The notes below the pieces were generated by a model. That model did no database searches. It saw only the letters and a list, made by a program, of their open reading frames with translations, and was not told where the DNA came from. Of a stretch of DNA of 64,000 nucleotides, positions 5,445 through 64,000 are shown one piece after another. The stretch is from Xanthomonas sp. DAR 35659. Lineage in GTDB: Bacteria > Pseudomonadota > Gammaproteobacteria > Xanthomonadales > Xanthomonadaceae. The position numbers and the translations under genes were made by a program. Where the stretch lies: positions 4,516,001-4,580,000 of the forward strand of contig NZ_CP162488.1 of NCBI RefSeq assembly GCF_041242975.1. Reading direction: 5' to 3'. Each line of letters starts with the position of its first letter. Positions within the stretch are counted from its first letter, which is position 1.

Positions 5445-8400
5445 TCACCAGCCGAAACCGGCGCCGATGCCGACCGAGCTGTCGTCGCCGCTGAACGCGC
5501 CGCCGATGGTCAGCGTGGCGCGGTCGCTGAAGGCGCGCTGGTAGCCCACCGACAGCGCCGACTCGCCGTTCTGGAAGCCGACGCCGGCGCCGACCCGGTT
5601 CTGGGTCCGGATGCCCGCGGCGCTGGTGGCCATGTTGAGCATCGCCGCGCTCATCGCGCCCTGCCGGTCGATGCGGCGGTCCTGGTCGCGCAACCGCGCA
5701 TCCACGTCGCCGCGCAGCACATCGAAGCTGTCGGCCATGGTGTTGAAGCGCGTGTCGGTGTACGCCTTGGCGGTAGCCACGCCGTTGTCCAGCTGGCCCT
5801 TGTTGACCGCATCGGTGGCGCGGGTGCCGGCGGCGACATTGGCGACCTGACGCTCGTTGCCGGCGCTGCCCACCGACACCGTGTTGGCGCGGTCGGCGAC
5901 CGAGCCCTGGCCCAGCGCGACCGCCCCCTGCGCCGTGGCGCTGGCCCCCTGGCCGAGCGCGGTGCCCGAGGCGGCGCTGACGCTGGCACCCTCGCCCATC
6001 GCCACCGCGTTGGTCGCCACCGCGGCGATGTGGCTGTTGGCGCCCACCGCGGTGCTGCCGTCGGCGTTGACCTTGGCGTTGCTGCCGATCGCGGTGTCGT
6101 TGGGGCCGTGCGCATAGGCGCTGCCGCCGATCGCGGTGCCGGTGACGTCGTTGGCGCGCGCGGCGGTACCGACCGCGGTGGCGCCGCCGCCGGCATCGGC
6201 CACGGCGCTGGTCCCGACCTGCGCGGCGGACGGGCTGCCCGACACAGTGGCCGTCGAAGTCCCCGCCTGCGCCGTGTCCTGCGCCGCCGCGGGCGCCGCG
6301 ACCGTGGCGCTGGCCATCCGCGCACTGCGCGACACGCTGGCCGTGCCCGTGCCACGCGCATCCAGCTCGCTGACCTTGGTGTCCAGCGCGGCCAGCGCAT
6401 CGCCGACGTTGCTGTAGCTGGCGCCCTGGATCAGGTAGGTCGGCGCCACGAACACGCCTTGCGCGCCAAGCCCGGCACCGCCACCCAGGAACGCGGCCAT
6501 GTTGCTCAGCGACTGGTACAGCTGGCTGCCGTTGATCGCCTCGGTGCTGCCGGCGGCGACTCTGCCCGCGGTCAGGTTGACGATGCGCCGCGTGGCCGGG
6601 CCGCCGCGGCCGTTGCCGCTGCCCAGCGACACCGTGTCGGCCTCGTAGACGCGCGAACCGGCACCCAGCGCGACCGCATTGTCGGCCGACACGCCGGCGT
6701 TGGCGCCGATCGCCACGCCGTTGCTGCCGCTGTTGCGGACGAAGCTGTTGTAGCCCAGCGCCACGCCGTTCTCGCCGATCGCATTGGTCTGCAGGCCGAT
6801 CGCGGTGCTGCGCGCGCCGCTCGCCGAACTGCTGGCGCCCGAGGCGGTCGCGCCGGCGCCGCTGGCGACGCTGGCCACGCCCAGCGCGGTGCTGCGCAGG
6901 CCGCTGGCACTGGCGCCGGCACCGGCCGCGGTGCTGTTCGCGCCGCTGGCGCTGGCCACCCCGCTGCCCGAGCTCTGGAACGCCGCGCTGGTTTCGCCGG
7001 CGGCCGCGGCCACCGCGTCGAGCTGCGCCTTGTTCACCGCATCGTTGGCGTTCAGCGCCGCACCGACATTGGTGATGCGGCGCGTGGCCGGCGCACTGAC
7101 CCCGTTGCCGCCGCCCACCGACACCACGTTGGCTTCGCTGGCGCGCGAACCGGCGCCGAGCGCGACGCTGTTGGCGCCGTTGGCCCAGGCGCTGGTGCCG
7201 AGCGCGGTGGCGTTGATGCCGCTGTAGGCGTACGCGTCCTGGCCGATCGCGGTGCCGCCCTGCACGGTCGCCCAGGCGAACTGGCCCACCGCCGTGGCCT
7301 GCGCCGCGGTGGCCCAGGCCGAGGCGCCGAGCGCGGTGGCGTCCTCGCCGGTGGCGCGGGCGCTATGGCCCAACGCCGACGCGTACGCGCCGGACGCGGT
7401 GCTGCCCCAGCCCAGCGCCGAGGCATAGTCGCCCGCCGCCGCCGCGCCGTAGCCGAACGCGCTGGTGCGGGTGCCGCTGGCGCTGCTGAAGGCACCGACC
7501 GCGGTGCTGTAGTCGGTCGCGGCCTCGGCCTTGTAGCCGCTGGCGGTGGCCTGCACGCCGCTGGCGCTGGCGCCGGCGCCGCTGGCGCTGCTGAACGCAG
7601 CGGTGGCCTGCGCGCCCGCGCCGAGCGCGGTGGCGCCGGCTTCGCTGGCGGTGGTGGTGCCGTCGAGCAGCACATTGCCGTCGGCGTCGGTGTAGTACAG
7701 CGAGCCGCCGATCGCGGTGCTGGACTCGCCGGTGGCGGTGGCGTTGTAGCCGGACGCGGTGGCGTACTGCGCGCCGGCCAGCGCGCCGCTGCCGAACGCC
7801 GAGGCGCCGGTGCCGTAGGCGTTGGACGCCTCGCCGGCGGCGGTGGCGTAGTTGCCCTCGACGTAGCTGCCGACGTCGTCGGCGGCGGTGTCGCCACCGC
7901 TGGCCTTGAACTGCTTGCCGGTCGCGTCGGCCGATTGCTTGACCGCGTCCAGCTGCGCGACGTTGACCGCGTCGGTGGCCTCGGTACCGGCGGCGACGTT
8001 GGTGATCTGCCGCTCGCTGCCGGCGCTGCCCACCGACACCGTGTTGTCGCGGTCGGCCTCCGACGCCGCGCCCAGCGCCACGCTGTTGCTGGCCGAGGCA
8101 TAGGCGCCGTAGCCGAAGGCGCTGGAATCGCTGGCGCTGGCGTAGCTCAGGCTGCCGATGGCGGTGCTGAAGTCGGCGGTGGCGCCGGCGCCGGCGCCGA
8201 ACGCCGACGCATTCGCACCGGACGCCTCGGCCGGAATCAGCCCGAAGAACGAGGTGCCGCCGACCGCCACGCTCTCCTCGCCGGAGGCCACGCTGTACTC
8301 GCCCACCGCCACGCTGCCGCTACCGGAAGCGGTGGAGGACACGCCGACCGCGGTGCCGTAGCTGCCGGAGGCGAGCGCGCCATAGCCCAGTGCCGAGGAC

Positions 8401-11400
8401 AGGTAACCGGTCGCCTCGCTGTAACCGCCCAGCGCGGTGGCCCCGGTGCCCGAGGCGGTGCTGCGGAAGCCGGTGGCGGTGGCCTGGTTGTCCGAGGCCA
8501 CGGCCTCGTTGCCGACCGCCGTGGCGTAGGTGGCGCTGGCCTGCGCGCCGGCACCGCTCGCAGTGGCCCCGATGTCCGCAGCCAGCGCGCCATTGCCGAT
8601 GGCGATGCTGTCCTGGCCCAGCGCCTGGCTGGCACTGCCCAGCGCAACCGCGTCGCTGCCGCTGGACACGGCGTTGAAGCCGATCGCGGTGGCCCCGGCG
8701 GCCAGCGCATTGGCGCCGCCGCCGAGCGCGGTGCTGCCGTCGCCGATCGCGTTGGCCGCTTCGCCGGCGGCCAGCGCATCGTCGCCGTCGACCAGCGCAC
8801 CGGCATCGCTGGCGTCGCTGCCACTGGCCTGGAAGTACTTGCTGGTGGTTGCGGCGGTCTGCTTGACCGCGTCCAGCTGCGCCACGTTGACCGCGTCGGT
8901 GGCCTCGGTGCCGGCGGCGACGTTGGTGATCTGGCGCGCGTTGCCGGCACTGCCCACCGACACGCTGTCGGCGCGGTCGGCGACGGAACCCGCGCCCAGC
9001 GCCACCGCATTGGACGCGGTCGCCTCGCTGCCGGCGCCGATCGCCACCGCGCTTTCCGCATCGGCCAGGCTGTTGGTGCCCAGCGCGATCGTGTTGACCT
9101 GATTGCCCAGCGCCTGGAAGCCCATCGCCACGCTGTAGTTGCCGTAGCCGAACGCGCCGCGGCCGACCGCGGTGGCGCTGAGGCCCGGCGCCCAGCTGTT
9201 GAAGCCGACCGAGGTGGCGCCGCTGCCGCTGGCCCAGGCGCCGGTGCCAAACGCCGAGGCGTTGGTGCCGGTCGCCCACGCCGAAGCGCCGAACGCCGAG
9301 GCGCCATCGGCGGTGGCCCAGGCATAGGCGCCGCTGGCGGTGGCGTCGTCGCCGCTGGCCCAGGCGTTGTCGCCCTGCGCCAGGCTGTAGCTGCCGGTCG
9401 CGCGCGCCTTGTAGCCGCCGGCGGTGCTGTGGTCGCCGGTGGCCTGCGCGCCGTAGCCGGTGGCGGTGGCCTGCGCTCCGGTGGCCTGCGCACCGGCGCC
9501 GAGCGCGGTGGCGTTCTCGCCGGCGTTGGCGCCGATCAGTTGCGCGTTGCCGTCGGCATCGACGATCGGCTGGTTGTACTGGTCGAAGGCCTGGCCCTGG
9601 CCGCCGATCGCGGTGGCGCCGGTCCCGCCGGCGCTGCTGCCGTTGCCGAGCGCGACGGCGTTGTCGCCCATCGCCGCAGCGCCGCTGCCGTAGGCGGCCG
9701 CGCCGGCGCCGTAGGCATTGGCCGCATCGCCCGCGGCCAGTGCGCCCTCGCCGTCGGCATAGGCGCCGACCGTGCCGCTGCCGCCGGCGGTGAAGAACTT
9801 CGCGGTGGACTCGGCGGTCTGCTTCACCGCGTCCAGCTGCGCCACGTTGACCGCATCGGTGGCCTGGGTACCGGCGGCGACGTTGACGATCTGCCGCTCG
9901 CTGCCTGCATCGCCGACCGACACCGTGTTGGCGCGGCGGGCGACCGAGTTCGCGCCCAGCGCCACGCTGTCGGCGGCGAGCGCGGTGCTGTAGTAGCCGA
10001 GCGCGGTGCTGTTGGCGCCGCTGGCCCAGGACTCGGCGCCGAGCGCGCTGGCGAAGGCGCCCGGCGCATAGGCGAAGTAGCCGAGTGCGGTGCTCTCCAG
10101 GCCGGACGCCTCGCTGAGGCTGCCGTTGGCGACGCTGTAGTCGCCGGAGGCGATCGCACCGGCGCCGAACGCCGCCGCGCTCTGCCCGCTGGCCTGGGTC
10201 TGCACGAACAGGCCCAGGCCCGGGATCAGGTCGGCCGGACCGCCCACCGCGACGCTGCTGGCGCCGGTCGCCGCGCTCTGCGTGCCGACCGCGGTGGCGT
10301 AGTCGCCGCTGGCATTGGCCACCGCGCCGAACGCGGAGGCCTGCGCGCCGCTGGCGTAGGCGCCCACGCCCACCGCCGAGGCGGCGAAACCGCCGGCATC
10401 GGCGCTGGCGCCCAGCGCGGTGCCGCCGACCCCGGCGCTGGTGGCGCCGGTCTCCACCGCCACCCCGCCATTGGTGATCAGCGGATCGCCGTTCTCGTCG
10501 ACCGCCACGCCGCCCACCGCCACCGCCGCCGGCCCGGTGGCCTGCGCGTTGGTGCCGAACGCGGCGCTGTTCTGCCCGGCCGCGACCGCGCCGCTGCCCA
10601 CCGCGGTGGCGCCGCTGGCGAGCGCGTCGGCGCCGCCACCGAGCGCGGTACTGCCGTTGCCGATGGCGTTGGCGGCTGCGCCGGCGGCGAGCGCGTCGTC
10701 GCCTTCGACGTAGGCGCCGGCGTCGCTGGCGCTGCTGCCGCTGGCCTGGAAATGCTTGGCGGTGGCGTCGGCGACGCTGGCGACCGCATCGAGCTGGTCG
10801 CGGTTCACCGCGTCGGTGCCCTCGGTGCCGGCGGCGACGTTGGCGATCTGGCGCTCCTTGCCGGCGCTGCCGATCGAGACCGTGTCGGCGCGATCGGCGG
10901 TGGAGCCCTGGCCGAGCGCGACGCTGCCGCTGGCCGCGGCCTTGGCGCCGTAGCCCAGCGCGGTGGCGTCGTCGGCCTGCGCCCACGAGGCGCCGCCGAG
11001 CGCGGTGCTGGAGTCGCCATCGGCCGAACTCAGCCAGCCGATCGAGGTGGAGAACGCGCCGTTGGCCCAGGCGCCGGCGCCGAACGCGGAGCCGCCTTCG
11101 CCCTGCGCCTCGGTGGCGAAGAAGCCGAGCACGCTGCCGCCGACCGCCGTGCTGGATTCGCCGCTGGCCAGGCTCGATTCGCCCACCGCCACGGCGCTGC
11201 CGCCGCTGGCATTGGCGCCGTAGCCGAAGGCGGAGGCGAAATCGCCGCCGGCCTGGCTGAAGCCGCCGGTGGCCGTGGTGGCCAGACCGCTGGCCGCGGC
11301 CGAGAAGCCGCTGGCCGTGCTCTGCACACCGTCGGCGCGCGCGGCGGTTCCCAGCGCGGTGGAGAACGCGCCGTTGCCCTGCGCGCCGGCACCGAACGCG

Positions 11401-12428
11401 CTGGCGCCCTGCGCCGCGGCGCTGGTGGTGCCTTCCAGCAGCACTTCGCCGTTCTCGTCGACGATGGACAGCGCACCGCCGACCGCGGTCGCCGAGGCGC
11501 CGGTCGCGGTCGCGTTGCTGCCCACCGCGGTGGCATTGCCGCCGATGCTGGTGGCGCCGCTGCCGAGCGCGCTGCTGCCGTTGCCGATCGCATTGGCGGC
11601 TTCGCCGGCGGCCAGTGCGTTGTCGCCCTCGACATAGGCGCCGGCATCGCTGTCGGCGCTGCCGCTGGACTGGAAATACTTGGCGGTGGTGTCGGCGGTC
11701 TGCTTGACCGCGTCCAGTTGCGCCACGTTGACCGCGTCGGTGGCCTCGGTGCCGGCGGCGACGTTGGTGATCTGGCGCTCCTTGCCGGCGCTACCGACCG
11801 ACACGCTGTCGTCGCGATCGGCCACCGCATCGGCGCCCAGCGCCACGCTGTTCTCGCCCTGGGCGACGGCGGCGTTGCCCAGCGCGGTGCTGTTGCGGCC
11901 GGCCGCATTGGCGAAGCCGCCGATGGCGGTCGCGTAGTCGGCGTCGGCGCTGGCGGCCAGGCCGAGCGCCGCGCTGGCGACGCCGGTGGCGACGCTCTCG
12001 GCACCCAGCGCGGTGGCGCCGGTGCCTTGGGCGGTGCTGTAGTAGCCGAGGGCGGTGGATTCCAGGCCGCTGGCTTCGCTGAGCGTGCCGCTGGCCACGC
12101 TGCCGTCGCCGCTGGCGTTGCTGGCCGCGCCGGTGGCGGTGCTCTGCTCGCCGCTGGCGCTGCTTTCGGCGCCGACCGCGGTCGCGTAGTCGCCGCTGGC
12201 GCTGGCGCCGTCGCCGATCTGCAGTGCTTGCGCGTGCGCCGCGGAAGGCAGTGCCGCCGCGCCGGCGCCCAGCGCCATGGCGATCGCGGCCGACAGCGCC
12301 AGCCCCTGCGCGCGCCCCGACCTGCCTTCACGGACCACCTGCCCGCGGGCGTCGCCGCTGGCCAGTTCCGAGGCCACGGTCCACATGCCCAATGCCTTGT
12401 TCCAGACCTTGCGATAAATCCGATTCAT
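5445..12428 (-). CDS. Giant trimeric autotransporter adhesin (YadA/XadA-like)
   Basis: This 2327-residue type V secretion adhesin has an extended signal peptide (ESPR) beginning MNRIYRKVWNKALGMWTV, with cleavage likely after PSAAHAQA near residue 70. A passenger of left-handed beta-roll head repeats (SxALGxxAxAxG units) follows. Eight neck/connector segments of the type VSVGSAGxERQITNVAAGT...DAVNxxQLDAV occur at about residues 238, 545, 865, 1185, 1493, 1803, 1968 and 2212. The first six are spaced 300-320 residues apart, showing internal block duplication. A short coiled-coil stalk precedes the C-terminal YadA anchor, which ends in ...VGIGAGFGW with the expected terminal aromatic residue. 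It should trimerise in the outer membrane and mediate attachment. It is transcribed alone from a long leader. Confidence 0.95.
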   Translation of the reverse strand: MNRIYRKVWNKALGMWTVASELASGDARGQVVREGRSGRAQGLALSAAIAMALGAGAAALPSAAHAQALQIGDGASASGDYATAVGAESSASGEQSTATGAASNASGDGSVASGTLSEASGLESTALGYYSTAQGTGATALGAESVATGVASAALGLAASADADYATAIGGFANAAGRNSTALGNAAVAQGENSVALGADAVADRDDSVSVGSAGKERQITNVAAGTEATDAVNVAQLDAVKQTADTTAKYFQSSGSADSDAGAYVEGDNALAAGEAANAIGNGSSALGSGATSIGGNATAVGSNATATGASATAVGGALSIVDENGEVLLEGTTSAAAQGASAFGAGAQGNGAFSTALGTAARADGVQSTASGFSAAASGLATTATGGFSQAGGDFASAFGYGANASGGSAVAVGESSLASGESSTAVGGSVLGFFATEAQGEGGSAFGAGAWANGAFSTSIGWLSSADGDSSTALGGASWAQADDATALGYGAKAAASGSVALGQGSTADRADTVSIGSAGKERQIANVAAGTEGTDAVNRDQLDAVASVADATAKHFQASGSSASDAGAYVEGDDALAAGAAANAIGNGSTALGGGADALASGATAVGSGAVAAGQNSAAFGTNAQATGPAAVAVGGVAVDENGDPLITNGGVAVETGATSAGVGGTALGASADAGGFAASAVGVGAYASGAQASAFGAVANASGDYATAVGTQSAATGASSVAVGGPADLIPGLGLFVQTQASGQSAAAFGAGAIASGDYSVANGSLSEASGLESTALGYFAYAPGAFASALGAESWASGANSTALGYYSTALAADSVALGANSVARRANTVSVGDAGSERQIVNVAAGTQATDAVNVAQLDAVKQTAESTAKFFTAGGSGTVGAYADGEGALAAGDAANAYGAGAAAYGSGAAAMGDNAVALGNGSSAGGTGATAIGGQGQAFDQYNQPIVDADGNAQLIGANAGENATALGAGAQATGAQATATGYGAQATGDHSTAGGYKARATGSYSLAQGDNAWASGDDATASGAYAWATADGASAFGASAWATGTNASAFGTGAWASGSGATSVGFNSWAPGLSATAVGRGAFGYGNYSVAMGFQALGNQVNTIALGTNSLADAESAVAIGAGSEATASNAVALGAGSVADRADSVSVGSAGNARQITNVAAGTEATDAVNVAQLDAVKQTAATTSKYFQASGSDASDAGALVDGDDALAAGEAANAIGDGSTALGGGANALAAGATAIGFNAVSSGSDAVALGSASQALGQDSIAIGNGALAADIGATASGAGAQASATYATAVGNEAVASDNQATATGFRSTASGTGATALGGYSEATGYLSSALGYGALASGSYGTAVGVSSTASGSGSVAVGEYSVASGEESVAVGGTSFFGLIPAEASGANASAFGAGAGATADFSTAIGSLSYASASDSSAFGYGAYASASNSVALGAASEADRDNTVSVGSAGSERQITNVAAGTEATDAVNVAQLDAVKQSADATGKQFKASGGDTAADDVGSYVEGNYATAAGEASNAYGTGASAFGSGALAGAQYATASGYNATATGESSTAIGGSLYYTDADGNVLLDGTTTASEAGATALGAGAQATAAFSSASGAGASASGVQATASGYKAEAATDYSTAVGAFSSASGTRTSAFGYGAAAAGDYASALGWGSTASGAYASALGHSARATGEDATALGASAWATAAQATAVGQFAWATVQGGTAIGQDAYAYSGINATALGTSAWANGANSVALGAGSRASEANVVSVGGGNGVSAPATRRITNVGAALNANDAVNKAQLDAVAAAAGETSAAFQSSGSGVASASGANSTAAGAGASASGLRSTALGVASVASGAGATASGASSSASGARSTAIGLQTNAIGENGVALGYNSFVRNSGSNGVAIGANAGVSADNAVALGAGSRVYEADTVSLGSGNGRGGPATRRIVNLTAGRVAAGSTEAINGSQLYQSLSNMAAFLGGGAGLGAQGVFVAPTYLIQGASYSNVGDALAALDTKVSELDARGTGTASVSRSARMASATVAAPAAAQDTAQAGTSTATVSGSPSAAQVGTSAVADAGGGATAVGTAARANDVTGTAIGGSAYAHGPNDTAIGSNAKVNADGSTAVGANSHIAAVATNAVAMGEGASVSAASGTALGQGASATAQGAVALGQGSVADRANTVSVGSAGNERQVANVAAGTRATDAVNKGQLDNGVATAKAYTDTRFNTMADSFDVLRGDVDARLRDQDRRIDRQGAMSAAMLNMATSAAGIRTQNRVGAGVGFQNGESALSVGYQRAFSDRATLTIGGAFSGDDSSVGIGAGFGW

Positions 12429-12606
12429 CGACTGCTGCTCCTCAAATAGGCTGGTTTTTGGTCAGAAAAGCCACCCTCGCCCGGCATTCCAGCCGGCCGA
12501 CCCCCTGTCGGTATTTGGCGCCGCATGCCCTGGAACCTCGGGGCGACCCGCTTGCGCGAGTCGCGGCTCGGTGCGCGTTGATGAACCGAGACGAAATGCG
12601 GAACTG

Positions 12607-12641
12607 TCTCGAGTGTTAACCCCGTATCTCGAGTACGTCAA
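12607..12641 (-). promoter_or_regulatory. Candidate adhesin promoter with paired TCTCGAGT sites
   Basis: On the minus strand TTGACG (12641-12636) and TAACAC (12618-12613) are separated by 17 bp, giving a leader of about 180 nt for the adhesin. The -10 match is only 3 of 6. Two identical TCTCGAGT octamers (12607-12614 and 12627-12634), each with a CTCGAG palindrome, are exactly 20 bp apart, two helical turns. They overlap the -10 and spacer, as an operator would. The regulator is unknown. Confidence 0.35.
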
Positions 12642-12644
12642 GTT

Positions 12645-13000
12645 TTTGACTTAAATCCGCGCAATCAGTGATGCAAACCTCAAAAATGCAAATTAATTGT
12701 TAACTTTTGGATAAAATTCAATCAAAACAAGACATTCCGCCAAATTCCCGGCACGTCACTTGCCGAGCGTTGACGCCGAGCGGTGGCGGCATTCGCTGTC
12801 GCGCCAAGGGTTTGACTCGTAGCCGGGCATGCAGGGACAGGCGTCCCGGCCGCGCTCGACGCCCGGCTGCCTGCGGCCGTGCACAAGCGCAACTGCGCAG
12901 ATCGCGGTCGCTGTCCGGGAGCGGCGGGGCGCGGGCGGTGCGGCGGGCACTGGGCGCGGACTGGGTGTTTTTCAGCCGGCGGGAGGCTGTGGTAGCGACT
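12645..13000. other. Noncoding stretch upstream of the adhesin
   Basis: About 80 bp (12640-12735) is unusually A/T-rich for this genome, with runs such as AAAAATGCAAATTAATTG. It could be a nucleoid-protein (H-NS-type) binding or UP-like region for the adhesin. The rest (12750-13000) is G/C-rich. I see no credible gene in it. Confidence 0.5.
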
Positions 13001-13580
13001 GGCGAGGGCGACTCGCGGAGGTTAGTGCACGAGGCTGCGCCCGTACCCTCATCCGCCCTTCGGGCACCTTCTCCCGATGGGAGAAGGGAACAGCCGATCG
13101 CCCCTCTCCCATCGGCAGAGAGCTTGGGGTGAGGGTCCGGCGCGAAAGCGACTCGCGGAGCTGGGCACACGAGGCTGCGCCCGTACCCTCATCCGCCCTT
13201 CGGGCACCTTCTCCCGATGGGAGAAGGGAACAGCCGATCGCCCCTCCCCCATCGGGAGAGAGGTTGGGGTGAGGGTCCGGCGCGAAAGCGACTCGCGGAG
13301 TTGGGGACACGAGGCTGCGCCCGTACCCTCATCCGCCCTTCGGGCACCTTCTCCCGATGGGAGAAGGGAACAGCCGATCGCCCCTCTCCCATCGGCAGAG
13401 AGCTTGGGGTGAGGGTCCGGCGCGAAAGCGACTCGCGGAGTTGGGGACACGAGGCTGCGCCCGTACCCTCATCCGCCCTTCGGGCACCTTCTCCCGATGG
13501 GAGAAGGGAACAGCCGATCGCCCCTCTCCCATCGGCAGAGAGCTTGGGGTGAGGGTCCGGCGCGAAAGCGACTCGCGGAG
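13001..13580. repeat. 140-bp tandem repeat array, four units
   Basis: Four units start at 13001, 13141, 13281 and 13421, with an exact 140-bp period and a 20-bp terminal piece (CGCGAAAGCGACTCGCGGAG) at 13561. Each unit contains small inverted repeats, for example GCCCTTCGGGC and CTTCTCCCGATGGGAGAAGG, which would form hairpins. The first unit start is slightly diverged. Related, more diverged units recur at 42478-42933. ORFs across it are artefacts of the repeat. Confidence 0.92.
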
Positions 13581-13588
13581 CACAGCCG

Positions 13589-13623
13589 CCTTCTGCCTTC
13601 CGCCTTCCGCCTTCCGCCTTCCG
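13589..13623. repeat. CCTTCCG heptamer microsatellite
   Basis: Four perfect CCTTCCG copies (13596-13623) follow one variant copy (13589-13595). They lie between the 140-bp array and the purL stop. The sequence is distinct from the GGGAATC family. Confidence 0.8.
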
Positions 13624-13669
13624 CCGCAGCGCCGCAGCGCCGCCAGCAGCGGACGCGGCTACGCGCCGC

Positions 13670-17725
<4,056 letters not shown>

Positions 17726-56181: not shown

Positions 56182-56274
56182 TCGTCCCTGATCAAGAGCC
56201 CGGCCATCCATGGCCGGACTTCTCAATGCCGAAGCTCGCATCTTCCAGCGCCCCACGTTTGAAAGGACACTGTG

Positions 56275-57216
56275 ATGTCTAAAATCCTCATCGTCGCCGA
56301 ACACCTCAACGGGCAGCTCAACGCCGCCACCGCCAAGTGCGTCAGCGCTGCGCAGGCCCTGTCGCCCGAGGCCATCGACATCGTGGTGCTGGCCGCCGAT
56401 CCGGCGGCGGTCGCCGCGCAGGCCGCGCAGATCGCCGGCGTCGCCCGGGTCCTCACTGTCGCCAATCCCGCCAACGCACACGCCATCGCGCAGGTGCTGG
56501 GCCCGCAGATCGCCGCCCTGGCGAAGGGCTACAGCCACGTGTTCGGCCCCTCCACCACCTTCGGCAAGGACCTGATGCCGGTGGTGGCCGCCCTGCTCGG
56601 CGTCAACCAGATCTCCGACCTGATGGCGGTGGACGGCGACTACGCGTTCAAGCGTCCGATCTACGCCGGCAACGCCATCATCAGCGTGCAGGCGCCGGCC
56701 GATCAGATCGTGGTCGCCACCGTGCGCAGCGCGTCCTGGCAGGAAGCGGCGCAGGGCGGCAACGCGGCGGTCGAAGCGGCCAGCGTGGACGCGGCGCTGC
56801 CGAGCCACACCCGCTTCGTCGGCCTGGCCGCCGGCAAGTCCGACCGCCCCGACCTGCAGAGCGCCAAGCGCGTGGTCTCCGGCGGCCGCGGCGTGGGGTC
56901 CGCGGACAACTTCAAGCACATCTACAGCCTGGCCGACAAGCTCGGCGCGGCGGTCGGCGCCTCGCGCGCGGCGGTGGACGCCGGCTATGTGCCGAACGAA
57001 CTGCAGGTCGGCCAGACCGGCAAGATCATCGCGCCGGAGCTGTACGTGGCGGTCGGCATCTCCGGTGCCATCCAGCATCTGACCGGCATCAAGGACGCCG
57101 GCACCATCGTCGCGATCAACAAGGACCCGGAATCGCCGATCTTCGAGATCGCCGATATCGGGTTGGTCGGTGACTTGTTCACCTTGTTGCCGGAGTTGGA
57201 AAAGGCGCTGGGCTGA
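56275..57216 (+). CDS. etfA: Electron transfer flavoprotein alpha subunit EtfA
   Basis: A 313-residue FAD-carrying subunit. The FAD-binding C-terminal domain includes [41 protein letters not shown] and [24 protein letters not shown] used ATG 56275 over the GTG one codon upstream; GAAAGGA precedes it. In Xanthomonas the strain-variable LPS genes typically begin next to etfA, as they do here. Confidence 0.95.
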
Positions 57217-57231: not shown

Positions 57232-58218
57232 ATGAGTCCGCTGCCGCCTTCCGGTCACGACGGCGTGCAGGTGCCACGACGGCGCATGGATCACCTTGCC
57301 ATGTTCGTGCTGCTATTGAGCGCGGGCTATGTCGCAGCGCTGTTTTGGCTGGACCGCGGCAACGGCACCTTCTCGCGGCTGAGCGAGGTCGCCAACCTGA
57401 TGGCGCTGGCCACAGTGCCCGTCACCGCCAGTTACCTGTTCCGGTACTGGCGCTGGCGCTGGTTGCTGCGGCGCTACGGCCATCAGGTCCCGTTCGCCGC
57501 CGGGTTGGCCGGTTATCTGGCCGGTTTCGCGCTGACCGCGACACCTGGCAAGGCCGGCGAACTGCTGCGTATCCGCTATTTCGCCAGGCTGGGTGTGCCG
57601 GCGCGACGGACCATCGCTGTGTTCGTGTTCGAGCGCGCGTCCGACCTGTTGGTGATCCTGTCGCTGTCCTTGTTGGCGGCGCCGGTGTTTCCCACATTGG
57701 GCGTTTTGGCGGCCGTGGTGCTGGCCTTCGTGGGCCTGTTGTTCGGCGCGGCCGCCTGGCCGCCGCTGCTGAACAGGCTGACGGATCTGGCCGGTCGGCT
57801 CCCTGGCCGCTGGCTGCAGCGGCCGGCGCAGTTCGCGCTGGCAGCAGCGAAGGAGGTGCGTGGCTGCCTCGGCCTTCGCCAGTTCGGGCAGAGCATGTTC
57901 GCGGGGTTGATGGCCTGGGGCCTGACCTCGGCGGTGTTCGTGGGGCTGTGCCTGGGGATGGGACTGGACCTCGATCCCAGTGTGGCGTTCGGAATCTACC
58001 CGCTGGCGATGCTGGTCGGCGCACTGTCCTTCGTACCAGGCGGTGTCGGCACCACCGAACTTGCGATCGTGCTGATGCTCGACCGCCTCGGTATCGCCAC
58101 CGCGGACGCGGTCGCGGTGGCGGTGGCCGCACGCCTGGTCACGCTGTGGTACGCCATTCTGGTCGGGGCACTGGCGATGATCCGCGCCGAACTCCTGCCC
58201 CGCGACGAGAGCACCTGA
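57232..58218 (+). CDS. LPG-synthase-TM/UPF0104-type polytopic protein (flippase-like)
   Basis: A 328-residue protein with about eight hydrophobic segments and the family motifs [33 protein letters not shown] and [21 protein letters not shown]. This fold (lysylphosphatidylglycerol synthetase TM region) appears in glycan loci and has been proposed to flip lipid-linked sugars; its role here is inferred. It starts 15 bp after etfA and 46 bp before the HAD-UbiA gene, so it opens the glycan cassette. If the polyprenyl-phosphate-pentose model is right, it could move that donor across the membrane. Confidence 0.75.
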
Positions 58219-58264
58219 TCCACTGGGTATAATCGCGGCCCGCCATGGATCGCCAGGCCCTCGA

Positions 58265-59716
58265 ATGCCCGCCCCCTCCCCCAGCTCCCTGCCCCAACTC
58301 CCGGTAGTTTCGGGGCGCGCCCTGTGCGTGGATCTGGACGGGACCCTGCTGAACTCGGATATTCTCTACGAGTCGGTACTCGCACTGCTGGCACGCAACC
58401 CGCTGTACCTGTTCATGCTGCCGCTATGGCTGCTGCGTGGAAAGGCGGCGCTGAAGCGAGAACTGGCGTCGCGCGTCTCTTTGCCTGCCGAAACCCTGCC
58501 CTACAACGAAAAGGTTCTGGAGCTGCTGCGCACCACGACGCAGCGCCCGCGGGTGCTGTGCACGGCCTCGGACGCCCTGCTGGTCAAGCCGATCGCGGAT
58601 TATCTCGGCCTGTTCGAACAGGTGATCGCCAGCGACGGCAAACGCAATCTCTCCGGGCGCAACAAGGCCGATGTCCTGGTCGACGCGTTCGGCACCGGCA
58701 ATTTCGACTATGCCGGCAACGGCACGGTGGACCTGCATGTCTGGGAAAAGGCCGGCGGTGCCTGGGTGGTCAACAACGGTGCCGCGCTCAGCAGGGCCGC
58801 CGCGCAGCGCACCACGGTGCACGCGCATTGGCCCGCACCGCCGCGTGGCCGCGCTTGGCTGAAGGCGCTGCGGTTGCATCAGTGGCTGAAGAACCTGCTG
58901 GTCTTCGTCCCACTGCTGACCGCGCACCGCTTCCTGGACCCGGAGTCGGTCCTCCAGGCGGCGATCGCGCTGATCGCATTCGGGTTGTGCGCCTCCGGCG
59001 TGTACGTGCTGAACGATCTGCTCGATCTCACGCCAGACCGCCAACACCTGCGCAAGCGCCGGCGCCCGTTTGCCGCTGGCCAGATTCCCTTGCTGCATGG
59101 CCTGTTCGCCGCTCCGGTACTGACCCTGGGCGGACTCGCGCTGTCGCTGGCCTGCAACCTGGAATTCACCCTGGTGCTGTTGGCCTACTACGTGATGACG
59201 CTGGCGTACTCGTTGCGCCTGAAGCGGATCGTGATGATCGATGTGGTCCTGTTGGCCGCGCTGTACACGGTGCGCATCATCGGCGGCGCGATGGCGATCG
59301 GCGTCGAACTATCGTTCTGGCTGCTCGCGTTCTCGATGTTCATGTTCCTGTCGCTAGCCCTGCTCAAGCGCTATACGGAACTGCACGCGATGCTGAACAC
59401 TGGCAGGACCAAGGCCAGCGGGCGTGCCTACTCGGTGGAGGACCTGTCCCTGCTGCAATCGATGGGTGCCGCCTCCGGCTACATCGCGGTGATGGTGATG
59501 GCGCTGTACATCAATAGTCCCGCGAGCGTGGCGCTGTATCGCCACCCGCAGGTGCTGTGGTTGATCTGCCCGGTGCTGCTGTATTGGGTGAGCCGAGTCT
59601 GGGTGATCGCGCACCGCGGCGACATGCACGACGACCCCATCGTGTTCGCCGCCACCGACAGGGTCAGCCAGATAGTGGTCGCGCTATGCGGGCTGTTCGC
59701 GCTGAGCGCGATCTGA
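58265..59716 (+). CDS. HAD phosphatase - UbiA prenyltransferase fusion (polyprenyl-P phosphoribosyltransferase-like)
   Basis: This 483-residue two-domain protein has an N-terminal HAD domain (about 18-180) with motif I CVDLDGTLLNSD (Asp23, Asp25), Thr100 in LCTASD and a late Asp in YAGNGTVDLHVW. The UbiA domain (about 198-483) has the Mg-binding NDLLDLTPDR (250-259), KRRRPFAAG and about eight TM segments. Mycobacterial UbiA Rv3806c joins PRPP to decaprenyl-P, and a phosphatase then removes the 5-phosphate. Fusing the two domains fits both steps in one protein (inference). It overlaps the next gene by one base (TGATG). It is not COQ2/UbiA of quinone synthesis, given the HAD fusion and the neighbours. 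Confidence 0.82.
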   Translation: MPAPSPSSLPQLPVVSGRALCVDLDGTLLNSDILYESVLALLARNPLYLFMLPLWLLRGKAALKRELASRVSLPAETLPYNEKVLELLRTTTQRPRVLCTASDALLVKPIADYLGLFEQVIASDGKRNLSGRNKADVLVDAFGTGNFDYAGNGTVDLHVWEKAGGAWVVNNGAALSRAAAQRTTVHAHWPAPPRGRAWLKALRLHQWLKNLLVFVPLLTAHRFLDPESVLQAAIALIAFGLCASGVYVLNDLLDLTPDRQHLRKRRRPFAAGQIPLLHGLFAAPVLTLGGLALSLACNLEFTLVLLAYYVMTLAYSLRLKRIVMIDVVLLAALYTVRIIGGAMAIGVELSFWLLAFSMFMFLSLALLKRYTELHAMLNTGRTKASGRAYSVEDLSLLQSMGAASGYIAVMVMALYINSPASVALYRHPQVLWLICPVLLYWVSRVWVIAHRGDMHDDPIVFAATDRVSQIVVALCGLFALSAI

Positions 59717-61023
59717 TGGCGGACGCGGGGCAAGCCTGGGGGCGCTATCCGAAGGCCACGCAGGTGTTGCTGCCGGTCGGCGATCGGGCGGCGGCGCTGC
59801 CTCCGTTCGACGGTCGCGCGCTCCCGCGCGGCAACGGCCGCAGCTATGGCGACAGCTGCCTGAATCCGGACGGCACCCTGCTGTGCGCGCGCAGCCTGGA
59901 CCGGTTCATCGGATTCGATCCGGCAACCGGCCTGCTGCACTGCGAAGCCGGGGTCACATTGGCCGAGATCATCGACCTGGCCTTGCCGCAGGGCTGGTTC
60001 CTGCCGGTCACTCCAGGTACGCGCTACGTCACCGTGGGCGGGGCCATCGCCAACGACGTGCACGGCAAGAACCACCACCGCACCGGCAGCTTCGGCCACC
60101 ATGTGCGCGCCTTCGAGTTGCTGCGCAGCGACGGCGCGCGCCGCGTGTGCACCCCCGACGATGATGCCGAAGGCTGGTTCGCCGCCACCGTCGGCGGCCT
60201 GGGATTGACCGGTCTCATCACCTGGGTGCAGCTCCAGTTGCGCCGGGTCGCGAGCGCCGCCCTGGAGACGGAGAACATCCGCTTCGGCTCGCTGGACGAG
60301 TTCTTCGCCTTGTCGGCAGCGTCTGCAGACACCCATGAATACAGTGTCGCCTGGATCGACTGCCTGGCCAGCGGCCGCGCGCGCGGCCGTGGCCACTTCA
60401 CCCGCGCCGACCATTGCCAGGGCTTGCCGGACGAACGCCCCAAGCCCCCCGGCGCGGGTCTGCCCATGCCGCTGACGCCGCCGTTCTCCTTGGTCAACCA
60501 ACTGTCGCTGCGGCCGTTCAACGCGCTGTACTTCTGGCGCCAGCCCGCGCCGCGCAAACGCTTCGTCAGCCACTTGCTGCCGTTCTTCTATCCGCTGGAC
60601 GGCATCCGCAACTGGAACCGCATGTACGGCCCGGCTGGCTTTCTGCAGTACCAGTGCGTCCTGCCGCCGGCCGCCGCCCGAGACGGGGTGGACGCATTGT
60701 TGGCGGAGATCGCGCGCAGCGGCAGCGGCTCGTTCCTGGCGGTACTGAAGGAATTCGGCGCAGCGCGTTCGCTCGGCATGCTGTCGTTTCCCCGGCCAGG
60801 CACCACCCTCGCACTGGATTTCCCCAATAGCGGCCCGGAGGTGTTCCGGCTGCTGGAGCGGCTGGACCGCATCGTCGACGCGGCCGGCGGCGCTCTGTAC
60901 CCTGCCAAGGACGCGCGGATGAGCGCAGCCTCGTTCCAGCGCGCCTACGGCCGCTGGCGGGAATTCACTGAGTATCTAGATCCACGCTTTTCTTCCGGCT
61001 TCTGGCGCCGGGTCACGGAGTAG
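59716..61023 (+). CDS. DprE1-like FAD oxidoreductase (decaprenylphosphoryl-ribose 2'-oxidase family)
   Basis: A 435-residue vanillyl-alcohol-oxidase-type flavoenzyme. The FAD-binding N-terminal half includes LPRGNGRSYGDSCLNPDG and IANDVHGKNHHRTGSFGHHV; His116 corresponds to mycobacterial DprE1 His132. Catalytic Lys398 lies in YPAKDAR (DprE1 Lys418). At the DprE1 Cys387 position there is Ala366 (PGTTLALDFP versus PGWNVCVDFP), so benzothiazinone-type covalent inhibition is not expected. DprE1 oxidises the 2'-OH of polyprenyl-phosphoribose, and the next gene would reduce it to arabinose. The start overlaps the previous stop. M. tuberculosis comparisons are from memory. Confidence 0.8.
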   Translation: MADAGQAWGRYPKATQVLLPVGDRAAALPPFDGRALPRGNGRSYGDSCLNPDGTLLCARSLDRFIGFDPATGLLHCEAGVTLAEIIDLALPQGWFLPVTPGTRYVTVGGAIANDVHGKNHHRTGSFGHHVRAFELLRSDGARRVCTPDDDAEGWFAATVGGLGLTGLITWVQLQLRRVASAALETENIRFGSLDEFFALSAASADTHEYSVAWIDCLASGRARGRGHFTRADHCQGLPDERPKPPGAGLPMPLTPPFSLVNQLSLRPFNALYFWRQPAPRKRFVSHLLPFFYPLDGIRNWNRMYGPAGFLQYQCVLPPAAARDGVDALLAEIARSGSGSFLAVLKEFGAARSLGMLSFPRPGTTLALDFPNSGPEVFRLLERLDRIVDAAGGALYPAKDARMSAASFQRAYGRWREFTEYLDPRFSSGFWRRVTE

Positions 61024-61025
61024 AC

Positions 61026-61754
61026 ATGCAACGCGTCCTCATCATCGGCGCCACCTCGGCCATCGCCGAAGCCACTGCCCGACGCTATGCCGCACGTGGC
61101 GCGGCGATCCATCTGCTCGGCCGCCAGGCCGCGCGCCTGGACGCGATTGCGGCCGACCTGTCCGTGCGCGGCGCCAAGGCCAGCACGGGCGTGCTCGACG
61201 TCAACGACGGCGCGCGCCACGGCGAAGTGTTCGACACCGCATGGGCGGCATTGGGCGGCGTGGACGTCGTCCTGATCGCCCATGGCACCCTGCCGGATCA
61301 GGCTGCCTGCGACGCCTCGGTCGAGCTTTCGTTGCGCGAATTCGCCACCAACGGCACCTCCACGATCGCACTGTGCGCTGCACTGGCACCGCGTCTGGCG
61401 GCTGGCGCGACGCTGGCGGTGATCTCGTCGGTGGCTGGCGATCGCGGCCGCGCCAGCAACTATCTGTACGGCAGCGCCAAGGCCGCGGTCAGCGCCTACC
61501 TGAGCGGCCTCGGCCAGCGCCTACGACCGGCCGGGATCAACGTCCTCACGATCAAGCCGGGCTTCGTCGACACGCCGATGACCGCCGCCTTCAAGAAGGG
61601 GGCGTTGTGGGCCAAGCCCGACCAGATCGCCCAGGGCATCGTGCGCGCCGTCGATCGCCGCCGCGCCGTTGCGTACCTGCCTGGATTCTGGTGGGCCATC
61701 ATGATGGTGATCAAGAACATCCCAGAGTTCGTTTTTCGTCGTATTTCTCTGTAA
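61026..61754 (+). CDS. DprE2-like SDR (decaprenylphosphoryl-2-keto-arabinose reductase family)
   Basis: A 242-residue short-chain dehydrogenase. Its nucleotide motif is IIGATSAIAEATAR, close to DprE2-like SDRs and unlike the usual TGxxxGIG. Ser135 lies in AVISSVAGDRGRASN; catalytic Tyr148 and Lys152 lie in YLYGSAKAA. SVAGxRxRxSNxxYGSAKA is a DprE2 hallmark. A C-terminal hydrophobic segment (PGFWWAIMMVIKNIPEFVFRR) may anchor it to the membrane. It starts 2 bp after the DprE1-like gene and would complete the 2'-epimerisation of polyprenyl-P-ribose to arabinose. Confidence 0.8.
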   Translation: MQRVLIIGATSAIAEATARRYAARGAAIHLLGRQAARLDAIAADLSVRGAKASTGVLDVNDGARHGEVFDTAWAALGGVDVVLIAHGTLPDQAACDASVELSLREFATNGTSTIALCAALAPRLAAGATLAVISSVAGDRGRASNYLYGSAKAAVSAYLSGLGQRLRPAGINVLTIKPGFVDTPMTAAFKKGALWAKPDQIAQGIVRAVDRRRAVAYLPGFWWAIMMVIKNIPEFVFRRISL

Positions 61755-61782: not shown

Positions 61783-62454
61783 ATGCCTGATATCGACCAA
61801 GATCTCGATGTGCTCTACCAACATCGGTTCCCCAAAGAAGAACTCGCCAACAAGAACCGGATCTGGCAAGTGCTGTGCAGGCAATATTTCAGCCGATTCG
61901 TCGGGCCGAATGAAACCGTGGTGGACATCGGCGCGGGCTACTGCGAGTTCATCAACAACATCCAGGCCGCGAACAAGATTGCCGTCGATCTCAATCCCGA
62001 CGTGCGCAAGTTCGCCGCCGACGGCATCCGCATCATCAACGAATCGTGCGTCGCGGTCAGCTCCATCCCCAGTGCCAGCGTCGATGTCGTATTCATGAGC
62101 AACTTCCTCGAGCACCTGCCGAGCAAGGACCTGGTGCTGCAGACGCTGCGGGAGAGCGCGCGCATGCTCAAGCCGGGCGGCAGGGCGATCATCCTGCAAC
62201 CCAATATCCGCTTCCTGTACGCCGAATACTGGGATTACTTCGACCACCACACCGCGTTGAGCGACCGCAGTCTGGTCGAAGGCGTCTTGATGGCGGGGCT
62301 GGATCCGAAGGTGGTGATCCCCAAGTTCCTGCCCTATACCACCAAGAGCCGGCTGCCGCAGGCCCCCTGGCTGGTGTCGCTGTATCTGCGCATCCCGCTC
62401 GCCTGGCACATTCTTGGCAAGCAGGCGCTGGTCGTCGCGTACAAGCGCGGCTGA
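61783..62454 (+). CDS. Class I SAM-dependent methyltransferase of the glycan cassette
   Basis: A 223-residue methyltransferase. Motif I is VVDIGAGYCEFINNI, the acidic strand is KIAVDLNPD, and SNFLEHLPSKD with ESARMLKPGGRAIILQPN gives the methyltransf_11/23 fold. AAGGAAG precedes the ATG at 61783. It lies 28 bp after the SDR in the same run. The substrate is unknown; by context it may be a sugar in the surface glycan or its lipid-linked donor. Confidence 0.85.
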   Translation: MPDIDQDLDVLYQHRFPKEELANKNRIWQVLCRQYFSRFVGPNETVVDIGAGYCEFINNIQAANKIAVDLNPDVRKFAADGIRIINESCVAVSSIPSASVDVVFMSNFLEHLPSKDLVLQTLRESARMLKPGGRAIILQPNIRFLYAEYWDYFDHHTALSDRSLVEGVLMAGLDPKVVIPKFLPYTTKSRLPQAPWLVSLYLRIPLAWHILGKQALVVAYKRG

Positions 62455-62483: not shown

Positions 62484-63428
62484 ATGGCACAGAAAAGCGA
62501 CAAGATCGTCTTGACCGGAGCCGCTGGCCTGGTGGGGCAAAACCTCATCGTCGAGATGAAGCAGCAGGGATATACGCAGTTGGTCGCCATCGACAAGCAT
62601 GAACACAATCTCCAGATCCTGCGCAAGCTGCACCCGGACGTGACAACGGTACTGGCCGACCTCGCCGAACCCGGCGCGTGGACCGAAGCGTTCGCGGGCG
62701 CCCGCCTTGTGGTACAGCTGCATGCACAAATCACCGGCAAGTTCCGCGCCTTGTTCGACCGCAACAACCTGCAGGCGACCGAGCGCGTGCTGGAGGCCTG
62801 CATGGAGCATCGGGTTCCCTACATGGTGCACATCAGTTCGTCGGTGGTGAATTCGGTCGCCACCGATGACTACACCGAAACCAAGAAGCTGCAGGAAGCG
62901 CAGGTCCGCGCCAGCGGCATCGCGCATTGTGTATTGCGCCCCACGCTGATGTTCGGCTGGTTCGACCCGAAGCACCTTGGCTGGCTGTCGCGCTTCATGG
63001 CGCGCACCCCCGTGTTTCCGATCCCCGGCGATGGGAAGTTCATGCGCCAGCCGCTGTATGAGCGCGATTTCTGCCGCTGCATCGTCAAGTGCATCGAAAC
63101 GGAGCCGGATGGCGCGGTGTACGACATTGTGGGCGATACGCGCGTGGACTACGTGGACATCATCCGCACCATCAAGCGGGTCAAGAAGTTGCATACGCTT
63201 ATCGTGCATATCCCGATCGGCTTCTTCGCGCTCCTGCTGCGCACGTATTCGTTGTTCAGCAGCAAGCCTCCTTTCACCGCGGACCAGCTGAAAGCACTGA
63301 GCGCCGGCGATGATTTCAAGGGCGTCGACACCGAAGCGGTGTTCGGTGTGCGGCAGACGCCGTTCGAGGATGCGATCCGCGAGAGCTACACCGACCCACG
63401 CTACAGCCACATCGTGCTGCAGCGCTGA
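62484..63428 (+). CDS. NAD-dependent epimerase/dehydratase family protein
   Basis: A 314-residue extended SDR with nucleotide motif LTGAAGLVGQNLIVEM, HISSSVVNS as the catalytic Ser strand and the segment YTETKKLQEAQV. The YxxxK is represented by Tyr-Thr-Glu-Thr-Lys. LRPTLMFGWFDPKHLGWLSRFM and the substrate-binding C-terminus fit nucleoside-sugar or lipid-linked-sugar epimerases. It is 29 bp after the methyltransferase. The exact substrate is unclear. Confidence 0.82.
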   Translation: MAQKSDKIVLTGAAGLVGQNLIVEMKQQGYTQLVAIDKHEHNLQILRKLHPDVTTVLADLAEPGAWTEAFAGARLVVQLHAQITGKFRALFDRNNLQATERVLEACMEHRVPYMVHISSSVVNSVATDDYTETKKLQEAQVRASGIAHCVLRPTLMFGWFDPKHLGWLSRFMARTPVFPIPGDGKFMRQPLYERDFCRCIVKCIETEPDGAVYDIVGDTRVDYVDIIRTIKRVKKLHTLIVHIPIGFFALLLRTYSLFSSKPPFTADQLKALSAGDDFKGVDTEAVFGVRQTPFEDAIRESYTDPRYSHIVLQR

Positions 63429-63458: not shown

Positions 63459-64000
63459 ATGAGCAAATTCGCCATCACCGGTAGCGGCCCCATGGGCCTC
63501 ATGGCAGCACTGGAGCTGCTCAAGCGGGGCCATGCGGTCGACGTGTACGAACGCGACGACCGGATCGGCGGCATGTCGGCGGACTTCGACTTCGATGGCC
63601 TGCGCATCGAGCGCTATTACCACTTCATCTGCAAGACCGACTATCCGCTATTCAAGCTACTGGACGAGCTGCAACTGTCCGATCGCCTGCATTGGACGGA
63701 TACCAAGATGGGGTATTACTACCAAGGCAAGCTGCACAAGTGGGGAACTCCATTCGCACTTCTCAGCTTCCCCCACCTTGGGCTGATCGACAAGGTCCGC
63801 TACGCCCTGCATGTGATGCACACCAAGGGCATCAAGGATTGGACCGAGCTGGACAAGGAGAATGCGCGCGCCTGGATCACGCGCTGGATCGGCCCGAAGG
63901 CCTACAAGGTGATGTGGGAAAAGGCGTTCTCGCTTAAGTTCTTCGAGTATCAGAACGCCCTGTCCGCGTCCTGGATCGGCACGCGCATCAAGCGCGTGGC
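63459..64000 (+). CDS. NAD/FAD-dependent oxidoreductase, amine-oxidase-like (5' part only)
   Basis: The first 180 residues are in the window. The N-terminus [24 protein letters not shown] is an FAD-binding Rossmann start, followed by [23 protein letters not shown], typical of protoporphyrinogen-oxidase/amine-oxidase-like proteins found in glycan loci. The 3' end lies beyond the window. It follows the epimerase gene by 30 bp. It may be related to UDP-galactopyranose-mutase-like or carotenoid-desaturase-like flavoproteins, which cannot be separated from this portion. Confidence 0.8.

Follow-up and report, generated by a model that had tools for sequence, protein, structure and literature searches.

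The window is the whole stretch of DNA that was analysed, 64,000 nucleotides of contig NZ_CP162488.1 from Xanthomonas sp. DAR 35659. The ORF listing and the translations place four intact, closely spaced ORFs on its + strand, at 57232-61754. The first of them starts 15 bases past the end of the neighbouring ORF 56272-57216, and the ATG of the DprE1-like gene shares one base (59716) with the stop codon of the UbiA gene. The name etfA given to the neighbouring ORF in a preliminary description of this DNA is consistent with the published metB-etfA layout. Past the four genes, the + strand carries a methyltransferase, an SDR and a FAD enzyme and, beyond position 64000, a GT-C-fold protein, a GtrA protein and a GDSL protein. 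The features are:

57232..58218, + strand, LPG_synthase_TM / TIGR00374 flippase-like membrane protein, 328 aa (PF03706, 141 bits; TIGR00374, 58.8 bits, cut-off 43.2)
58265..59716, + strand, HAD-UbiA fusion, predicted polyprenyl-phosphate phosphoribosyltransferase and 5'-phosphatase (PPPRS), 483 aa (NF006088, 677 bits, cut-off 351)
59716..61023, + strand, DprE1-like FAD oxidase, proposed to oxidize C2 of polyprenyl-P-ribofuranose, 435 aa (FAD_binding_4, 67 bits)
61026..61754, + strand, DprE2-like SDR reductase, 242 aa (adh_short, 110 bits; NF005489, 318.8 bits, cut-off 267)
61783..62454, + strand, SAM-dependent methyltransferase, optional member of the cassette, 223 aa (PF08241, 43.7 bits)
62484..63428, + strand, GalE-like extended SDR, proposed pentose C4-epimerase, about 314 aa (PF01370, 67.5 bits)
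63459..64000 (end of the window; the whole gene runs to 64766), + strand, FAD enzyme of the Amino_oxidase/PRK07233 family, proposed furanose-pyranose mutase on a lipid-linked pentose, 435 aa (PF01593, 121 bits)
64942-66231 in window-equivalent numbering, same strand, putative GT-C-fold protein (VIA-align on the model)

The preliminary description had read the first four genes as a flippase-like TM protein, a HAD-UbiA fusion, a DprE1-like and a DprE2-like enzyme. This set is confirmed by the ORFs, the Pfam and NCBIfam families, the matches to solved structures and the catalytic residues, and the motifs HGKNHH, YPAKDAR and SVAGDRGRASNYLYGSAKA are present in the translations. In the Pfam search, LPG_synthase_TM, FAD_binding_4 and adh_short were matched with the scores listed above, UbiA with 75 bits and HAD with 26.2 bits, just below the cut-off of 27. 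The UbiA part matches the M. tuberculosis decaprenyl-P phosphoribosyltransferase 8j8j (E 6e-27); its residues N250, D251, D254 and D258 are kept in 138 of 138 aligned relatives, and the catalytic D23 of the HAD part (DLDGT, 23-27) in 132 of 132. A HAD-UbiA protein has been shown to make polyprenyl-P-ribofuranose, and the UbiA residues of Citrobacter youngae ORF15 are N247, D248, D251 and D255, with D18 as the HAD catalytic Asp (Kelly 2024, PMC11127046). Both the UbiA residues, equated through a constant offset of 3, and the HAD catalytic Asp are found in the Xanthomonas fusion.

The DprE1-like protein matches solved DprE1 (4aut) with an E-value of 1e-77. The first His of HGKNHH and the Lys of AKD, kept in 130 of 130 and 131 of 131 aligned relatives, align to solved DprE1 at what we take to be the FAD-linking His132 and the active-site Lys418 of the M. 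tuberculosis enzyme. Y148 and K152 of the YxxxK motif in the DprE2-like protein are kept in 126 of 126 relatives. The scores lie under the NCBIfam equivalog cut-offs (NF053785, 367.7 bits against 500; NF053786, 173.4 bits against 250), and therefore DprE1-like and DprE2-like, and not the strict names, are right. The matches to solved DprE1 and to 8j8j are much stronger than chance would give. The alignment also places an Ala where mycobacterial DprE1 has its inhibitor-reactive Cys, presumably numbered Cys387, which makes the Xanthomonas protein a useful natural comparison for the mycobacterial enzyme.

The Tyr and Lys of YxxxK in the GalE-like SDR are kept in 100 of 100 aligned relatives. The FAD enzyme scores 546.2 bits (cut-off 252) with NF005560, a family labelled 'hypothetical protein', and its motifs ERYYHF and YYYPEDR are almost invariant in 102-103 aligned relatives. 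It differs from UDP-galactopyranose mutase (UGM) in that the GLF domain is not among the nine Pfam families matched at E 0.1, desaturase and porphyrinogen oxidase scoring higher, and in its proposed substrate, a lipid-P-pentose and not a nucleotide sugar. Its model lies nearest to desaturases and oxidases in VIA-align. Foldseek and VIA-align do not tell a mutase from a desaturase or oxidase, and a family missing from their lists counts as no evidence. The predicted fold gives no specific pointer to a mutase and, as far as the model goes, counts against the mutase proposal. Hopanoid enzymes were rejected as candidates for both proteins, HpnA for the SDR (45.4 bits, cut-off 367.65) and HpnE for the FAD enzyme (64.9 bits, cut-off 283.05).

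The co-occurrence of these genes was scored in two sets. The FAD protein retrieved 80 loci among the matches listed, all scored with our own bit thresholds, which were set low for UbiA, DprE1 and DprE2 to let in genes truncated at contig ends (L044, L052, L053 and L065 lie at contig ends). UbiA, DprE1, DprE2, SDR, FAD and GtrA genes occur together in 69 among the 80 loci listed, and 60 of these 69 have the six in one order and on one strand. With the HAD-UbiA fusion as protein query, 72 genomes besides Xanthomonas sp. DAR 35659 were positive and 71 were included, leaving out G136 (a fragment hit). Of 73 regions scored 70 were counted, outside being L144 (second contig of G340), L155 (UbiA sub-threshold) and L157 (distant FAD gene only). 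The regions are called UbiA-positive because some hits are fragments or span only the UbiA domain, as at least 9 of the 70 do, and contig ends truncate some of the regions. Natural controls exist, as 4 of the 9 genomes listed from the same genus gave no UbiA hit. The two sets are not independent, since they overlap, as contigs of equal length show (e.g., L025/L143, L012/L135 and L014/L139).

The SDR and FAD genes are both present in 21 of the 70 UbiA-positive regions and both absent in 49. DprE1 and DprE2 accompany them in 21 of 21; one or both DprE genes are missing from 17 regions, and neither SDR nor FAD occurs in any of these (hypergeometric p 0.0008, kinship ignored). DprE1 and DprE2 stand without SDR or FAD nearby in the remaining 32 regions; in one of these genomes, G340, the SDR and FAD genes are on a different contig. 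Among 398 genomes of the phylum, 8 have the FAD orthologue (Xanthomonas sp. DAR 35659 included), and all 8 have HAD-UbiA. The full set was also found at five FAD loci, in Burkholderia stagnalis and in four genomes of family f19 (L164, L180-L183), one of the UbiA matches having only 29% identity. One MAG has SDR and FAD genes but not DprE1/E2.

A GT-C transferase had been predicted to lie beyond 64000, and a candidate was found there: the top 48 of the best 50 VIA-align matches to the model of the 64942-66231 protein are GT-C or GT-C-like enzymes. This protein is matched by neither Pfam (E 0.1) nor NCBIfam, and a sequence search of the PDB at E 1 found nothing. The role of flippase, on the other hand, would pass from the LPG_synthase_TM protein, to which it had been given, to GtrA, which is in the conserved core; the LPG_synthase_TM gene is over threshold in 29 among the 80 loci listed and is a patchy accessory of the cassette. 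The methyltransferase is over threshold in 27 of the same 80 listed loci. An ABC-transporter-dependent O-antigen locus is marked by Wzm/Wzt and rhamnan-type transferases between metB and etfA; as candidates for such a set, the present locus holds a Wzt-like ABC ATPase (below equivalog cut-offs), an RgpF-type protein (220.9 bits) and a WbsX-type protein (446.5 bits).

Three known systems resemble this one. The three-component pentofuranose side-chain system of C. youngae O1/O2 (Kelly 2024, PMC11127046) shares the HAD-UbiA catalytic residues, the nearby SDR epimerase and probably the ABC-transporter type of O-antigen locus; its transferase (ORF12) belongs to CAZy GT136, and a GT-C fold like that of this system is predicted for the 64942-66231 protein. 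Xanthomonas adds the DprE1-like and DprE2-like genes and the FAD enzyme, and has GtrA in place of the Citrobacter ORF14 (EmrE/ArnE-like, assigned to the MATE family in Kelly 2024); an ORF14-type flippase was not matched among those cassette proteins that were scanned. The same paper mentions unexplained extra epimerases in Xanthomonas and examples that have more than one candidate epimerase or GT-C. The mycobacterial decaprenyl-P-arabinose pathway (Rv3806c, Rv3807c, DprE1 and DprE2) likewise has a UbiA-type phosphoribosyltransferase, an oxidase and a reductase with conserved sites, whereas in Xanthomonas a HAD domain joined to UbiA takes the place of the phosphatase, the DprE1 Cys site is an Ala, further SDR and FAD enzymes are present, and the genes lie in an LPS locus and not with arabinogalactan. 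The metB-etfA LPS locus of Xac 306 and Xoo BXO8 has the same genes in the same flank (ORF9, GtrA-like, and ORF11-ORF17). In the available part of the paper on that locus (Patil 2007, PMC2238763), these ORFs are 78-95% identical between Xac and Xoo, except for ORF9 (50%), no Xac match is listed for ORF13, and the labels (integral membrane, prenyltransferase, oxidoreductase, phytoene desaturase or epimerase) carry no pathway assignment.

The families, the conserved residues and the locus support a module of the mycobacterial DPA type for a lipid-linked pentose, as the preliminary description held. It had also taken D-arabinofuranose (D-Araf) as the final donor. The SDR and FAD genes stand next in the same run and are usual companions of the set, so that D-Araf is probably an intermediate and not the final donor. 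With a probability of roughly 0.55 for the explanation as a whole, the cassette makes a polyprenyl-phosphate-linked pentose that is attached to the O antigen after export. Judging from the conserved residues, HAD-UbiA would form polyprenyl-P-ribofuranose from PRPP. The DprE1-like oxidase and the DprE2-like reductase would then invert C2, a reaction known from DprE1/DprE2 in mycobacteria, to give polyprenyl-P-beta-D-arabinofuranose. The sugar would be taken further by the GalE-like SDR and the FAD enzyme, whose genes co-occur and are nearly always found with those of these two steps, most likely with the FAD enzyme converting the furanose to D-arabinopyranose and the SDR inverting C4 to yield L-xylopyranose. 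The pentose might also be methylated by the methyltransferase. GtrA, perhaps aided by the LPG_synthase_TM protein, would flip the donor, and the GT-C-fold protein may move it to the O antigen, an acceptor suggested by the locus.

By computation, inverting C4 of D-arabinose gives L-xylose, and inverting C3 gives D-lyxose. That the cassette is specifically a route from PRPP to L-xylose on the lipid carrier, through C2 inversion, a D-Araf to D-Arap mutase and C4 inversion to L-Xylp, is a tentative proposal with less than even odds, and the MAG lacking DprE1/E2 counts against it. With retention of the 1,2-cis anomer, the donor would be alpha-L-Xylp-P-polyprenol, from which an inverting GT-C enzyme could build a beta-L-xylosyl branch as in R. 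solanacearum. On this route the FAD enzyme would use a lipid-linked pentose, a substrate for which we know of no mutase.

A donor that stays polyprenyl-P-beta-D-arabinofuranose, while the SDR, the FAD enzyme and the methyltransferase serve a different sugar in the same O antigen and have only the locus in common with it, is unlikely but the strongest of the alternatives. The 32 regions with DprE1 and DprE2 alone suggest that such a cassette exists, DprE1/E2 have been linked to Araf-containing glycans (Kelly 2024, PMC11127046), and some loci have SDR and FAD (L072, L075, L078 and L084) or FAD alone (L073 and L080) without UbiA or DprE genes nearby. However, the genomes of L072, L075, L080 and L084 all carry HAD-UbiA and DprE1 (53-55% identity) on other contigs, and none of the 70 UbiA-positive regions has SDR and FAD without DprE1 and DprE2. 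Less probable still is that the SDR works, like Citrobacter ORF13, as a C3 epimerase on the furanose, with the FAD enzyme as its oxidase partner and another pentofuranose, such as D-lyxofuranose, as product. D-Lyx is the C3 epimer of D-Ara, the FAD model is nearest to desaturases and oxidases, and ORF13 of C. youngae O2, a GalE-like SDR, converts Ribf to Xylf (Kelly 2024, PMC11127046); but ORF13 is the single extra gene in its locus, whereas SDR and FAD are paired here (21 of 21), and lyxofuranose occurs in no solved carbohydrate structure according to the same work. A donor for type IV pilin glycosylation is very improbable: a DPPRS orthologue was proposed for pilin Araf in Pseudomonas aeruginosa, with a P. 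syringae candidate (cited in Kelly 2024, PMC11127046), but the present cassette probably lies within a metB-etfA type O-antigen locus, among the Wzt-like, RgpF-type and WbsX-type proteins.

Should D-Araf be no more than an intermediate, DprE1/DprE2-like genes alone would be no marker of LPS arabinose, and the SDR and FAD pair would mark an additional sugar. L-xylose has been reported from O antigens of plant pathogens. The O antigen of pv. begoniae is a 'partially L-xylosylated L-rhamnan' by the title of its paper; beta-L-Xyl is reported in the OPS of R. solanacearum, and Rha and Xyl, the latter with no configuration stated, in X. translucens LPS. In an open-access literature library, no paper was found that ties these genes, or assigns any genes, to L-xylose synthesis. 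A comparison with Ralstonia was wanted because of the beta-L-Xyl in R. solanacearum. A 16S diagnostic pattern matched 0 of 398 genomes. Family f19 is Burkholderiaceae by inference, the 16S of its member G449 being 99.2% identical to a Cupriavidus record, and 12 of 249 genomes sampled from it gave FAD hits (nine with 70-100% identity and three near 30%). The FAD gene was not found in the 16 genomes of genus g281 (Ralstonia-like, loosely), presumably part of the 249; one of the 16 has HAD-UbiA, with DprE1/E2 alongside and SDR and FAD absent nearby. A stretch of one g281 member has its best plasmid matches in Cupriavidus (79%). The best 120 homologues listed for a Cupriavidus-type FAD protein, few of them with any name, include a single Ralstonia by name (R. 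pickettii DTP0602, 92% identity) and none named R. solanacearum. The comparison leans against a universal L-Xyl role of the cassette.

The L-xylose proposal, if true, would assign a function to NCBIfam NF005560 (PRK07233). Members of this family within the cassette gene set occur in Xanthomonas, Stenotrophomonas, Lysobacter, Dyella, one Rhizobium MAG, a Pseudomonas, Burkholderia stagnalis and a probable Cupriavidus.

The four genes at 57232-61754, which the preliminary description took for a lipid-linked D-arabinofuranose module, are all intact and placed on the + strand, as verified by ORF and profile checks. Reading of the DNA beyond the window (G000:C1:4516001-4580000, in a host genome of 5.4 Mb) extends the same-strand run past these genes and past the window end (coordinates above 64000 are window-equivalent):

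57232-61754, +, first of four genes: TIGR00374/LPG_synthase_TM membrane protein
57232-61754, +, second of four: HAD-UbiA fusion
57232-61754, +, third of four: DprE1-like flavoprotein
57232-61754, +, fourth of four: DprE2-like SDR
61783-62454, +: methyltransferase
62484-63428, +: GalE-like SDR
63459-64766, +: FAD enzyme, ending past the window
64942-66231, +: membrane protein (GT-C gene)
66386-66790, +: GtrA
66787-67557, +: GDSL protein

Beyond the GDSL protein are opposite-strand genes, including a methyltransferase, RgpF-type and WbsX-type genes and a Wzt-like ATPase, followed by an ORF judged by eye to be metB-like, a layout that matches the one described in Patil 2007 (PMC2238763). Between the FAD and GT-C genes lies a decayed second copy of the GtrA N-terminus, residues 1-45 (64763-64897, or L003:9764-9898 in the DNA fetched around the window end; 51% identity, E 5e-10), with the intact gtrA downstream; it is probably the scar of a transferase swap. 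Two ORFs overlap in different frames on the - strand at L003:12606-14997 (window-equivalent 67605-69996), a hydrophobic one without Pfam match (13843-14997) and a second long one (12606-14258), possibly a single membrane protein gene that carries a frameshift.

Working on Citrobacter youngae, Kelly 2024 (PMC11127046) used mutants, NMR and in vitro assays to show that polyprenyl-P-ribofuranose is the product of a HAD-UbiA protein, that the GalE-like SDR ORF13 converts Ribf to Xylf, and that a GT-C enzyme attaches the pentofuranose once the O antigen has been polymerised. The same paper reports DprE1/E2 homologues from Araf-containing systems and mentions, unexplained, 'multiple candidate epimerases or GT-Cs' for Xanthomonas and Bacillus examples. 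Patil 2007 (PMC2238763) catalogues the same cassette genes for Xac 306 and Xoo BXO8, with no pathway assigned in the sections consulted. Neither the kind of module nor its location is therefore new.

Catalytic residues are retained. The UbiA part matches 8j8j (E 6e-27), and its N250, D251, D254 and D258, conserved in 138/138 aligned relatives, have the spacing of N247/D248/D251/D255 in C. youngae ORF15 (Kelly 2024, PMC11127046). The HAD Asp is conserved in 132/132 aligned relatives. The DprE1-like protein matches solved DprE1 (E 1e-77) and keeps the His of HGKNHH and the Lys of AKD. The site equivalent to Cys387, the inhibitor-reactive Cys of mycobacterial DprE1, is Ala in 124 and Thr in 7 of 131 aligned relatives. 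Both DprE-like scores fall below the NCBIfam equivalog cut-offs.

By computation, C2 inversion turns D-ribose into D-arabinose and C4 inversion turns D-arabinose into L-xylose. In a furanose pentose the ring oxygen is borne by C4, and consequently a GalE-like epimerase would need a pyranose. The FAD enzyme is proposed to act as a UGM-type mutase providing this pyranose to the GalE-like SDR, which would explain why the two occur together. Since structure comparison with the FAD model (pLDDT 77) gives mutases scores similar to those of desaturases, porphyrinogen oxidases and amine oxidases, the mutase activity is one that we infer. The general scheme of the cassette is given a probability slightly above one half (about 0.55); L-xylose as its product is a tentative proposal, with the odds somewhat against it.

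L-xylose is a reported branch sugar of rhamnose-rich O antigens. In pv. begoniae a 'partially L-xylosylated L-rhamnan' is described (title), its repeat xylosylated non-stoichiometrically, and the R. solanacearum O antigen carries non-stoichiometric beta-L-Xyl. Such xylosylation is consistent with a sugar added to the finished polymer, a point made by Kelly 2024 (PMC11127046) for its own system. The LPS of X. translucens contains rhamnose and xylose, the latter of configuration not given in the material available. The sugar data fit the proposal only in part, because beta-D-Xylp is reported for the Xylella O antigen and a polymer of rhamnose for Xac Xcc99-1330. A genome comparison bearing on R. 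solanacearum, which is not a clean test, leans against a universal rule.

Searching named genomes with the FAD protein gave 181 relatives, and cassette genes were scored at the loci of the best 80. UbiA, DprE1, DprE2, SDR, FAD and GtrA are all present in 69 of these 80, in that order on a single strand in 60 of the 69. The other 11 comprise four loci cut by contig ends and seven more (L048, L072, L073, L075, L078, L080, L084); genome searches place HAD-UbiA and DprE1 (53-55% identity) on other contigs for L072, L075, L080 and L084. L048, from a Dokdonella MAG, has UbiA, SDR, FAD and GtrA at about 6200-11900; DprE1/E2 are absent at the locus, and the best DprE1 match in its genome reaches just 32%. 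By cassette logic this set would yield L-lyxose, the C4 epimer of D-ribose. A locus titled Bacillus subtilis SK7B5 encodes enzymes 68-90% identical to the Xanthomonas cassette, for which reason the organism name is probably wrong; its membrane protein is 45% identical. Across the phylum the FAD query matched 9/398 genomes, one distantly (31%), and the other eight all carry HAD-UbiA.

Seen from HAD-UbiA, 25/198 family and 49/398 phylum genomes matched, some through the UbiA domain only. Of 70 fetched UbiA-positive regions, 21 have both SDR and FAD, all 21 with DprE1 and DprE2, and 49 have neither, one of which belongs to a genome (G340) encoding both on another contig. The pattern is nested, from UbiA alone, through UbiA plus DprE genes, to UbiA together with DprE1, DprE2, SDR and FAD, and is seen again in Xanthomonadaceae, a Pseudomonas, Burkholderia stagnalis and four genomes of family f19 (Burkholderiaceae by inference). 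In B. stagnalis plas2 (L164, 328-15736) the six-gene core and a related methyltransferase adjoin isonitrile synthase, efflux and sugar-transferase-like genes, a neighbourhood that suggests a pentose-bearing natural product. In a 1.7 Mb f19 genome (L181, 4864-11540), DprE1 and DprE2 share one strand, and the other strand encodes a flippase-like protein, GtrA, FAD, SDR and a UbiA-domain match at only 29% identity.
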